Shown here in pieces: positions 1,398 to 48,418 of a stretch of DNA of 64,000 bases; within the stretch, counting starts at the first letter, position 1, and each line of letters starts with the position of its first letter. The DNA comes from Nocardioides marinus (GTDB taxonomy: Bacteria > Pseudomonadota > Alphaproteobacteria > Rhodobacterales > Rhodobacteraceae). The notes beneath the pieces were generated by a model. That model was given only the letters and a program-made list of their open reading frames with translations, had not been told where the DNA came from and searched no databases. Location: assembly GCA_019801415.1 (NCBI GenBank), contig JAHVJD010000004.1:124001-188000 (forward strand). Direction: 5' to 3'. Both the position numbers and the translations under genes were made by a program.

Positions 1398-2207
1398 GTG
1401 AGGCAGTGGGTTCTGGCGGTTCTGGCAGCGGTGCTGCCAGCCGTGTCTTTGGCGCAGGACAGCCGTCTGCAACGGATGGATACGCTGGATGCAGGCCGCA
1501 AGTGGGAAGCCGTCGGGCGGCTGGATGTCAATGGCGAAGGTTTTTGCACTGGCGCGCTGATCGCGCCCGATCTGGTGCTCACGGCGGCGCATTGCCTTTA
1601 CGACAGCCGCACCAAGGAACGGATCGACCCCTCGACGATCGAATTTCTCGCAGGGTGGCGCAACGGTCGCGCCTCGGCGTACCGCTCGGTGCGCCGGGCG
1701 GTCGAGCATCCTTCCTACGTGTTTGACGGTGCCCTGTCGACGGATCGCGTGCGTAATGACCTGGCACTGCTGCAATTGCAACGCCCGATTCGGAACACCA
1801 CCGTCACCCCTTTTGAAACCGATGCCCGCCCGCGCAAGGGGGCCCGGATCGGCGTGGTGTCCTATGCCCACGACCGCTCGGAAGCGCCCTCCCTGCAAGA
1901 GGTCTGCGCGGTGATGGCGCGGCAGGAGGGGGTGTTGGTGATGTCCTGTGATGTGGACTTTGGCTCCTCCGGGGCGCCGGTGTTTTCCTTTGACGGGGAT
2001 AAGCCGCGGATCGTTTCGGTGGTGTCGGCCAAGGCCGAGGTCAGTGGCAAGCGGGTCTCGCTTGGCTCTGCGCTGGCGGAGGAGCTGGCCCTGTTGCAGG
2101 CGCAGTTGACCGGCGTTGCCACCAGCAGCCGCATGCCGCCCGGCGTCGGTCGGGTACGGGTCGGTGAGGGGCGTGGCACCTCCGGCGCCAAGTTCATCCG
2201 GCAATGA
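1398..2207 (+). CDS. secreted trypsin-like serine protease, first of a tandem pair
   Basis: A 269-residue S1-family peptidase, probably periplasmic or secreted. It begins with GTG preceded by an AAGAGGAGA ribosome site. Residues 1-19 form a Sec signal peptide ending at an SLA-Q junction. The triad is visible: H65 in LTAAHC, D121 in RNDLALLQL and S191 in GSSGAPV. C50/C66 and C170/C184 could form disulfides. The C-terminal tail (GRVRVGEGRGTSGAKFIR) is not part of the protease fold and recurs in the next gene. The stop overlaps the downstream start by four bases, so the two are probably translated together. Substrate unknown. Confidence 0.9.
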   Translation: MRQWVLAVLAAVLPAVSLAQDSRLQRMDTLDAGRKWEAVGRLDVNGEGFCTGALIAPDLVLTAAHCLYDSRTKERIDPSTIEFLAGWRNGRASAYRSVRRAVEHPSYVFDGALSTDRVRNDLALLQLQRPIRNTTVTPFETDARPRKGARIGVVSYAHDRSEAPSLQEVCAVMARQEGVLVMSCDVDFGSSGAPVFSFDGDKPRIVSVVSAKAEVSGKRVSLGSALAEELALLQAQLTGVATSSRMPPGVGRVRVGEGRGTSGAKFIRQ

Positions 2208-3022
2208 GCTGGCGGGGGCTGATCCTGGCGCTTGTCGCCTGCGGCGTCAGCGCGGCAGCGATGGCCCAAGACACCGGCCTGCGGCGATTGACAGACCGCG
2301 AGGATGTGTTGGGCTGGGAAGCCGTGGGGCGGCTGGAGCTGAAGGGGCAGGGCTTTTGCACCGGGACCCTGATTGCGCCGGAACTGGTGCTGACCGCGGC
2401 GCATTGCGTTTACGGGCGCGACGGGATGCTGCGACCGGCAGAGCAGATCGTCTTTCGCGCCGGGCTGCGCGACGGTGTGGCCATTGCCGAGCGGCAGGCG
2501 TTGCAGATCGCCGCGCATCCGGGGTTTGACCCACATCGTCGGTTGGACATGAACAACATTCGCCACGATGTTGCGTTGATCCGTCTGGCGCGGCCCATTC
2601 ACAGCCACGAGGCCGACGCCTTTGCGCTGCATGCGGCGCGTGACTATGGCCAGGACATATCCGTTACCTCCTATGGCATGGGGCGGGCCAAAGCGCCGTC
2701 ACGGCAGCGTCACTGCAACCTTCTGGGGGAGCAGAACGACGTGATGGTGATCGATTGCAACGTGACCTTCGGGTCGTCTGGTGCGCCGGTGTTCTCGCAG
2801 GTGGGCGGGCGGGGACGCATCCTGGCGCTGGTTTCGGGCGGCGGCAGCTACAATGGCCGAAAGGTTGCCTTTGGCATGAAGCTGCCAGAGCGCGTCGCGG
2901 AATTGAAGGCGCAGCTGCGCCGCAACCCGGTGGCGCCGCCAGGCCCACGGATCAAGCGTATCCGGGTCGGCAATGGAAGTTCATCCGCGGGCGGCGCAAA
3001 ATTTGTCCGCCCCGAAGGCTGA
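2204..3022 (+). CDS. secreted trypsin-like serine protease, second of a tandem pair
   Basis: A 272-residue S1 peptidase and clear paralogue of the gene it overlaps by four bases. The signal peptide covers about residues 1-21 (LVACGVSAAAMAQD). The triad lies in LTAAHC, RHDVALIRL and GSSGAPV. The two proteins align over their whole length, including a conserved tail (KRIRVGNGSSSAGGAKFVR). This looks like tandem duplication followed by divergence, with both copies still catalytically intact. No cognate inhibitor or substrate gene is adjacent. The downstream hsp20 gene has its own promoter, so this operon probably ends here, although no strong terminator is visible. Confidence 0.9.
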   Translation: MSWRGLILALVACGVSAAAMAQDTGLRRLTDREDVLGWEAVGRLELKGQGFCTGTLIAPELVLTAAHCVYGRDGMLRPAEQIVFRAGLRDGVAIAERQALQIAAHPGFDPHRRLDMNNIRHDVALIRLARPIHSHEADAFALHAARDYGQDISVTSYGMGRAKAPSRQRHCNLLGEQNDVMVIDCNVTFGSSGAPVFSQVGGRGRILALVSGGGSYNGRKVAFGMKLPERVAELKAQLRRNPVAPPGPRIKRIRVGNGSSSAGGAKFVRPEG

Positions 3023-3029
3023 CAGCCCT

Positions 3030-3057
3030 CTTGAACCCCTCTTCTGCTTTCCTATCT
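3030..3057 (+). promoter_or_regulatory. sigma-32 (RpoH)-type heat-shock promoter of hsp20
   Basis: CTTGAA at 3030-3035 is followed after 14 bases by TCCTATCT at 3050-3057. This matches the RpoH consensus (CTTGAA, 13-17 bases, CCCCATNT) at every -35 position and six of seven defined -10 positions. Transcription would start near 3064 and give a leader of roughly 90 nt ahead of the hsp20 start. The position, directly upstream of a small heat-shock gene, supports the assignment. Confidence 0.6.
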
Positions 3058-3067
3058 CAGCATTGTC

Positions 3068-3156
3068 GGGGCCGCCGCTGATCGGGGCCCGGACGTGACC
3101 CGCCTGTCCCAAAAGGGAAGGCACCCTTGAAATCGCTCAACTTATGAGGATGACAC
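3068..3156 (+). promoter_or_regulatory. ROSE-like RNA thermometer in the hsp20 leader
   Basis: The leader can fold into three successive hairpins. The first pairs GGGCC (3068-3072) with GGCCC (3086-3090). The second pairs GCCT-g-TCCC (3102-3110) with GGGAAGGC (3115-3122) around an AAAA loop. The last pairs ATC-g-CTCA (3132-3139) with TGAGGAT (3145-3151). In the last hairpin UCGCU faces the Shine-Dalgarno AGGA (3147-3150) with one bulged G. That is the hallmark UYGCU/AGGA arrangement of ROSE elements, which control small heat-shock genes in alphaproteobacteria. Melting on heating would free the ribosome site six bases before the ATG. The fold was worked out by hand. Confidence 0.6.
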
Positions 3157-3624
3157 ATGCGTACCTTCGATTTTACCCCGCTGCACCGGGCCACCATCGG
3201 CTTTGACCAGATCGCAAATCTGATGGACCGCGCCTTGAGCGCCGATTCCACCCAGTCCAGCTACCCGCCCTACAACATCGAAAAGACCGATGCCGACAGC
3301 TATCGCATTTCGGTGGCCGTTGCCGGTTTCTCCGAAGACGACCTGAGCGTCGAGGTCAAGGAAAACGCGCTGGTTGTTTCGGCCAAGAAGGCTGACACGG
3401 ACGACGAAGAGCGGACGTTCCTGCACCGTGGCATTGCCACCCGTGCCTTCGAGCGTCGCTTCACCCTTGCCGACCACGTGCGGGTGACAGGCGCCACCCA
3501 TGAAAACGGCATGCTGCATATCGACCTGTATCGCGAGGTGCCCGAAGCACTGAAACCGCGGCGGATCGAAATTGCCTCGTCCCGTACCAAGCATCCCGAG
3601 ATCGAGGCCAAATCGGTCAACTGA
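3157..3624 (+). CDS. small heat-shock protein, Hsp20/IbpA family
   Basis: A 155-residue ATP-independent holdase that binds unfolding proteins in the cytoplasm. The alpha-crystallin domain spans about residues 33-130. It contains YNIEKTDADSYRISVAVAGF, the ENALVVSAKK strand and the HRGIATRAFERRFTLADHV segment with the usual A-x-x-x-n-G-m-L end (HENGMLHIDLYREVPE). Length and charge are typical of IbpA-type proteins. The start is fixed by AGGA six bases upstream, inside the thermometer hairpin. A sigma-32-like promoter precedes it and a strong hairpin terminator follows, so it is a single-gene heat-shock unit. Confidence 0.95.
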   Translation: MRTFDFTPLHRATIGFDQIANLMDRALSADSTQSSYPPYNIEKTDADSYRISVAVAGFSEDDLSVEVKENALVVSAKKADTDDEERTFLHRGIATRAFERRFTLADHVRVTGATHENGMLHIDLYREVPEALKPRRIEIASSRTKHPEIEAKSVN

Positions 3625-3643: not shown

Positions 3644-3673
3644 AAAAGCCCGCCAGAGATGGCGGGCTTTTTT
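3644..3673. terminator. Rho-independent terminator after hsp20, possibly bidirectional
   Basis: AAAAGCCCGCC (3644-3654) and GGCGGGCTTTT (3661-3671) form an 11-bp stem with a six-base loop, followed by further T residues. It lies between the convergent hsp20 and phytase-like genes. The A-run on the left arm becomes a T-run for the minus-strand gene, so it may serve both. Confidence 0.85.
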
Positions 3674-47695: not shown

Positions 47696-48418
47696 ATGCC
47701 CAATCCAACAGCAGCCATGCTGGTCATCGGGGACGAGATCCTGTCGGGCCGCACGCGCGATGCGAACATGCATTACCTGGCCGGAGAGCTGACCAAGCAC
47801 GGGATCGACCTGAAAGAGGTGCGCATCGTCAGCGATGACGCTCCGGCGATCGTGGCGGCGGTACGGGCGCTGTCGGCGGCCTATGATCACGTGTTCACCA
47901 GCGGCGGCATCGGGCCGACCCATGACGACATCACCGCCGATTGCATCGCCGAGGCGTTTGACGCGCATCTGGATGTGCGTGCGGATGCCCGTGCGATCCT
48001 GCAGGCGCATTACGACACCCAGGGGCTGGAGCTGAACGAGGCCCGGCTGCGGATGGCGCGCATTCCCGAGGGGGCGGTGCTGATCGACAACCCGGTCTCG
48101 GCCGCGCCGGGGTTCACCCTGGGCAATGTGCATGTGATGGCTGGCGTGCCGATGATCTTCCAGGCGATGGTGGCCAGCGTGATGCCGACGCTGACCGGCG
48201 GCCAGCCGATGTTGTCCCAGACCCTGCGGGTGCAGCGCGGCGAGGGCGAGATTGCCGCGCCATTGCGCCAGCTGGCCGAGACCTATGATGACCTGACGGT
48301 CGGCTGCTATCCGTTCCAGAAGGACGGCGTCTTTGGTGCCAACATCGTGATCCGTGGCCATGACGGGGCGCGGATCGACGCGGCGATGACCGATCTCGCC
48401 CGGGAGCTGGGGCAGTGA
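47696..48418 (+). CDS. molybdopterin-binding domain protein, CinA N-terminal-like
   Basis: A 240-residue single-domain protein of the MoaB/Mog fold. It has AAMLVIGDEILSGRTRDANMHYLA at the N terminus and the phosphate-binding loop FTSGGIGPTHDDIT, as in the N-terminal half of CinA ('competence/damage-inducible protein A'). The C-terminal nicotinamide-nucleotide amidase domain of full CinA is absent. The family is also linked to ADP-ribose pyrophosphatase activity. The start at 47696 follows AAGGGAG. It overlaps the next (GNAT) gene by four bases. Confidence 0.88.
   Translation: MPNPTAAMLVIGDEILSGRTRDANMHYLAGELTKHGIDLKEVRIVSDDAPAIVAAVRALSAAYDHVFTSGGIGPTHDDITADCIAEAFDAHLDVRADARAILQAHYDTQGLELNEARLRMARIPEGAVLIDNPVSAAPGFTLGNVHVMAGVPMIFQAMVASVMPTLTGGQPMLSQTLRVQRGEGEIAAPLRQLAETYDDLTVGCYPFQKDGVFGANIVIRGHDGARIDAAMTDLARELGQ

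Follow-up and report, generated by a model that had tools for sequence, protein, structure and literature searches.

The nearest described counterparts of the leader reported here are the ROSE-type RNA thermometers, which the available parts of three papers (PMC3669281, PMC4166951, PMC13104619) describe in terms that we used for comparison: a 5′ UTR of two to four hairpins upstream of a small heat-shock gene, a U(U/C)GCU motif that pairs imperfectly with the Shine–Dalgarno (SD) sequence in the 3′-proximal hairpin and leaves a G unpaired, and a profile shared with known members. In Pseudomonas putida, according to the accessible portion of PMC3669281, sigma-32 transcription and ROSE-like translational control have been shown by experiment to act together on ibpA. 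ROSE-like motifs were also predicted in 2011 before ibpA and hspD of the roseobacter Nautella sp. R11, in what is, in the available part of PMC3230580, a one-sentence prediction given without alignment or test. Here we describe the leader of an hsp20 gene in a 64-kb stretch of DNA (the window, meaning the whole stretch analyzed) whose source, judging from its sequence, is a member of the Rhodobacteraceae and a relative of marine roseobacters; it shares both clade and kind of genes with the Nautella prediction. Taken as a whole explanation, sigma-32 transcription combined with ROSE-type thermometer control of hsp20 translation is in our view highly likely. This is a known class of RNA thermometer, already suspected in the clade, and not a new kind.

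The resemblance to the rhizobial hspA type (RF00435) lies in a multi-hairpin small-heat-shock-protein leader in which UYGCU faces AGGA with an extra G, and in overlapping matches of a model built from our own leaders (R1, below). The two differ in that UCGCU is found in 79 of the 81 leaders compared here, whereas 10 of 11 named non-Rhodobacterales leaders have UUGCU, and in that the Rfam model does not reach the leaders of the window and its 80 relatives. ROSE_2 (RF01832, E. coli ibpA) is likewise a small-heat-shock-protein leader, with an R1 match at the ibpA start, but its Rfam model has no match on 3000–3200 at E ≤ 10. The short Pseudomonas ibpA thermometer, in the part of PMC3669281 that is available, shares the combination of sigma-32 with ROSE-like control, predicted here from sequence; it has two hairpins, whereas the hsp20 leader here has three and that of the genome's second hsp20 has two.

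An initial annotation, made from the letters of the window, had read a close RpoH match, CTTGAA-14-TCCTATCT, followed by a three-hairpin leader of about 90 nt, in which the last hairpin pairs UCGCU with AGGA around one bulged G. All of these elements are present (Table 1). The two promoter elements are separated by 14 nt and conform to the promoter type of the RpoH (sigma-32) regulon (consensus CTTGAA / CCYATNT). This pattern, written after the site had been seen, occurs once in the 64-kb window against 0.08 expected. On a 13-point promoter scale, 79 of the 81 leaders compared here score at least 12, the exceptions being L008 with 11 and L053 with 10; these are raw scores, without a background control on the relatives. 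Two RpoH-like sigma factors are encoded in the window's genome, one at 368 bits, over the cut-off, and one at 274 bits, below it; inspection by eye of the regions before these two genes (L136, L137) revealed no UYGCU/AGGA leader.

Table 1. Features of the hsp20 locus in window coordinates, followed by related leaders elsewhere.
Feature	Position	Strand	Basis
RpoH (sigma-32)-type promoter: CTTGAA 3030–3035, TCCTATCT 3050–3057	3030–3057	+	pattern match
Leader hairpin 1, GC-rich, invariant GCC 3074–3076	3066–3093	+	RNAfold, covariation
Leader hairpin 2, GCCUGUCCC-AAAA-GGGAAGGC	3102–3122	+	RNAfold, covariation
Leader hairpin 3, presumed thermosensing, covers SD	3132–3151	+	RNAfold of that piece alone
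Anti-SD UCGCU (ROSE UYGCU motif), unpaired G3135	3133–3137	+	conservation
SD AGGA, 6 nt before ATG	3147–3150	+	sequence, conservation
hsp20, IbpA-type small heat-shock protein, 155 aa, start codon ATG at 3157	3157–3624	+	PF00011, 72.2 bits
Probable intrinsic terminator, GCCCGCCA-GAGA-TGGCGGGC-TTTTTT	3648–3673	+	read directly from sequence
Short ROSE-like leader of second hsp20	L083 1314–1383 (contig C4, ~437.2 kb)		sequence comparison
ROSE-like two-hairpin rpoH leaders	L228, L229, L230, just upstream of oriented position 1501	L228 -, L229 +, L230 -	sequence

When the leader was folded together with coding sequence in RNAfold, hairpins 1 and 2 formed; hairpin 3 forms when its own segment is folded in isolation, and with coding sequence another fold wins. 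In hairpin 3 the pairs are U3133–A3150, C3134–G3149, C3136–G3148, U3137–A3147 and C3138–G3146, with G3135 as the extra, unpaired base. In the window, this SD hairpin alone is worth −5.4 kcal/mol at 37 °C and the part with hairpins 1 and 2 −33.3 kcal/mol.

Conservation was assessed on 81 leaders, namely that of the window and the best 80 of 585 confirmed relatives. T[C/T]GCT faces AGGA in every one of them (TCGCT in 79, TTGCT in 2), and G3135, whose conservation in related genomes the initial annotation had proposed as a check, is invariant (81/81). RNAalifold, run on an unguided MAFFT alignment, returned a consensus of three hairpins with 16 pairs, 10 of them with double changes. Of the cells in this consensus structure, 95.7% are paired versus 89.6% in shuffles, double-change cells number 110 versus 42, and the covariation score is 0.294 versus 0.178; none of 500 shuffles, which ignore relatedness, reaches the observed value on any of the three measures. 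Sliding the partners by 1–3 columns leaves at most 62.5% paired, a control that favors the structure because the structure was derived from the tested alignment. All four consensus pairs of hairpin 1 show double changes (88.5% of cells paired), as do five of the six in hairpin 2 (96.7% paired), and hairpin 3 is paired in 99.4% of cells, its loop-closing pair C3138–G3146 appearing as CG in 64 leaders, UA in 13 and UG in 4. Compensatory changes, the absence of which in homologous leaders had been named as a ground for abandoning the reading, are present. The covariation signal comes from hairpins 1 and 2 and from the pair that closes the loop of hairpin 3; the UYGCU/AGGA core hardly varies, and the test speaks neither for nor against it. 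In hairpin 1, the three positions of the GCC are G, C and C in 81 of 81 leaders. This GCC faces G's, with one G that seems to stay unpaired, and so resembles a GC-rich version of the UYGCU core; GCC is likewise kept in all 30 short leaders and recurs in the three rpoH leaders described below.

Infernal with the Rfam ROSE models, to which the initial annotation had looked for confirmation, did not supply it: the ROSE families have no match at E ≤ 10 on 3000–3200, and neither the window nor any of the 80 relatives scores over the gathering threshold of RF00435, RF01832 or RF02523. R1, the covariance model built from the 81 leaders, does reach known members. Run on 8 kb of E. coli K-12, it returns a single match, the ibpA leader (28.6 bits, E = 4.2e-6), which Rfam identifies as ROSE_2 (RF01832) at 100.4 bits. 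Our second reference set comprised 12 hsp20 loci of named plasmids, 11 of them non-Rhodobacterales and one from Paracoccus. RF00435 passes its threshold in 9 of the 12; the Methylobacterium locus scores 44.7 against a threshold of 45, one Rhizobium is weaker at 37.2, and the Paracoccus locus, whose leader R1 scores at 40.3 bits, has no RF00435 match at E ≤ 0.5. For 10 of the 11 named non-Rhodobacterales leaders, R1 and RF00435 match at the same place (R1 scores 13.4–25.3 bits; L101 is missed). The E-values of R1 are rough and an off-target match reached 20.6 bits, so scores near 20 are insufficient alone, and there the coincidence of position with the RF00435 match is the evidence. Because R1 reaches both E. 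coli ibpA and RF00435-matched leaders, we read the Rfam negatives as a limit of the Rfam models.

Set against the published descriptions, all 81 leaders pair U(U/C)GCU imperfectly with the SD in the 3′-proximal hairpin and leave a G unpaired; the hairpins number three, with compensatory changes; a small heat-shock gene lies downstream; and a profile is shared with known members through R1. The hsp20 leader is thus very probably a ROSE-type thermometer of a form that escapes the Rfam models, and the ROSE-like thermometer first proposed from the letters gains support from the kept UYGCU/AGGA pairing with its extra G, from the compensatory changes and from the reach of R1 to known ROSE leaders. 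A fourU thermometer was ruled out, the anti-SD being UCGCU and not UUUU.

R1 matches 110 of 120 Rhodobacteraceae genomes at E ≤ 0.01, once in each except for one genome with two, and Hsp20 is present in 119 of the 120, including 9 of the 10 that have no R1 match. Among the matches listed, at least 96 of the 111 in the family are followed by an Hsp20 match at a distance of no more than 400 nt; of the remaining 15, 14 have Hsp20 in the fetched piece of ~0.9 kb, which records presence and not exact adjacency. The next best R1 match in the window's own genome scores 14.1 bits, so there is one copy. Rhodobacteraceae thereby gain a testable candidate temperature switch. Across the class, R1 matches 42 of 142 genomes (two of them Rhodobacteraceae) and RF00435 matches 6 of 142 at E ≤ 0.01, a difference suggesting that alphaproteobacterial ROSE thermometers are under-annotated. 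Besides the window's own, there are 44 class-wide R1 matches; Hsp20 is present at the locus for 42 of them, including one from the same family. Outside the family, T[C/T]GCT faces AGG in 37 of 41 R1 leaders before hsp20, and the core pattern is absent from four (L172, L202, L214, L219). Two R1 matches, neither of them before hsp20 or rpoH, were judged to be chance: one of 25.9 bits (L222) sits inside what is probably a secA gene, and one of 26.1 bits (L194) precedes an ORF that by eye presumably encodes an ABC ATPase.

We envision that hsp20 would be transcribed from the sigma-32-type promoter into an mRNA with a ROSE-type leader of about 90 nt. At growth temperature, hairpin 3 would pair UCGCU with AGGA around the extra G and block ribosome access; as the temperature rises, hairpin 3, being short and imperfect, would be the first to open while the GC-rich hairpins 1 and 2 stayed folded, and hsp20 translation would start. 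We infer the transcript start, the RpoH dependence and the temperature-dependent opening of the leader; by analogy, transcription and translation of hsp20 would both sense heat.

Folding at different temperatures gives a mean unpaired SD of 0.10 at 25 °C and 0.13 at 42 °C over the 81 leaders, and for the window's leader with 30 nt of coding sequence the value goes from 0.24 at 25 °C to 0.18 at 42 °C. The 11 RF00435-matched leaders, folded in the same way, give 0.41 and 0.43. Because these leaders likewise show no predicted opening, the calculation judges neither way, and we rejected it as evidence. At 25 °C the SD is held tighter in the 81 leaders than in the 11; the single UCGCU leader among the latter gives 0.44, so the UCGCU letter alone is not the cause of the tightness. 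In the window's sequence, the competing fold that wins with coding sequence pairs 3128–3135 with 3168–3175, at about codons 3–7.

An alternative that we regard as unlikely is that the leader is mainly a protein-binding site, with Hsp20 binding its own 5′ UTR and repressing translation until aggregates draw it away, and with melting secondary or absent. E. coli IbpA is a translational autorepressor that acts through the ibpA 5′ UTR, with Arg93 essential, and the authors note Arg93 in alphaproteobacterial IbpAs, according to the available part of PMC10474464. All 81 window-type proteins have the equivalent of Arg93 in the motif GIATRAFERRF, 80 of 81 have Arg97 and all have a basic residue at 98 (numbering by alignment to E. 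coli IbpA). However, this role does not exclude a thermometer and autorepression may refine one, the same E. coli leader having been described both as a thermometer and as an IbpA target, and the kept SD pairing with its extra G is explained by a thermometer alone. It is far less probable that the hairpins serve only mRNA stability, with an SD pairing that is ordinary weak structure and control that lies with RpoH transcription alone. The part with hairpins 1 and 2 averages −27.2 kcal/mol and the SD hairpin −6.1 kcal/mol at 37 °C, and folding predicts little melting, both of which would suit such an account; but every one of the 81 leaders retains UYGCU, shuffling upstream of the SD leaves it 0.44 open versus 0.10 at 25 °C (243 shuffles), and the E. 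coli ibpA ROSE leader is recognized by R1.

The pattern TCGCT-N3-12-AGGA was seen three times in the 64-kb window against 4.2 expected; at this chance frequency the UCGCU/AGGA motif by itself is worthless as evidence and was rejected as such, and the case for a ROSE-type thermometer stands on conservation and on position, the SD lying 6 nt upstream of the hsp20 start codon. Coincidence, that is, UCGCU near an SD by chance as that frequency would allow, has next to no likelihood in view of the conservation and compensatory changes in relatives, the one copy in the window's genome and the location before hsp20 in relatives.

The window's genome has a second hsp20 (L083, contig C4 near 437 kb, GTG start) with a shorter leader, on which R1 has no match at E ≤ 5. 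This short form, with one upstream hairpin and UCGCU facing AGG[A/G], is found in 30 of 30 leaders from the 30 best-scoring homologous loci. In 29 of them (L157 dropped), 96.0% of cells are paired versus 90.1% in shuffles and there are 16 double-change cells versus 3.4; the structure used here had been drawn manually on the alignment that was then tested. From these sequences, long and short ROSE forms thus appear to coexist in Rhodobacteraceae, in agreement with what PMC3230580 remarks about ibpA and hspD in Nautella R11. A covariance model of the short-form leaders (R2), used to hunt further targets, gave five matches that stand out in 385 genomes (47.0–64.4 bits, all Rhodobacteraceae), the rest scoring at most 28.2 bits. 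As a search model R2 was rejected as too narrow; it also misses the rpoH leaders. A weak R2 match in the window (48343–48388, + strand, 16.6 bits) is probably chance.

An R1 match of 30.7 bits (L208) is located immediately upstream of an rpoH gene in another, small-genome alphaproteobacterial order, of which three genomes were examined (L228, L229, L230). The L208 product, a 249-aa piece, scores 288.1 bits against the sigma-32 model NF005143 (cut-off 241) and 273.1 bits against TIGR02392, below the cut-off of 323.1. In all three genomes the rpoH leader has a first hairpin with AUGCC, its arms differing but largely complementary, followed by AUUGCUU..AAGGAU, in which UUGCU faces AGGA, and then by 6–7 nt to the ATG. 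R1 scores only one of the three leaders, R2 and Rfam none, and in the L230 leader folding predicts a mostly unpaired SD (0.64 at 25 °C). ROSE elements outside small heat-shock genes, on rhlA and lasI of Pseudomonas, appear in the accessible portions of PMC13104619 and PMC6761213, and the available text of PMC4166951 describes the class as always associated with small heat-shock genes; the portion of the ROSE thermometer literature that was surveyed contained no report of ROSE on rpoH. If the reading is true, the RpoH sigma factor would be made under a direct SD-blocking thermometer, unlike the one of E. coli rpoH, and if these leaders work, the type of switch proposed for hsp20 would also govern the sigma factor of the heat-shock response. 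We think it fairly probable that the ROSE type is broader than Rfam represents, with a divergent version, usually in one copy, that is near-universal in Rhodobacteraceae, a short form that guards a second hsp20 and a ROSE-like leader on rpoH in another order.

The window's Hsp20 scores 155 bits against the IbpA model NF008013, under that model's cut-off of 212, and is 51% identical to E. coli IbpA. The Hsp20 of a Leisingera strain is 86% identical to it, and those of the other 79 relatives kept are 68–82% identical. A simple terminator scan reported none at 3648–3673; from its sequence, the terminator-like element there is the probable end of the hsp20 unit. Directly upstream of hsp20, at 2204–3022, lies a gene for a trypsin-like protease (Pfam), which a similar-looking ORF at 1398–2207 overlaps by 4 bases.
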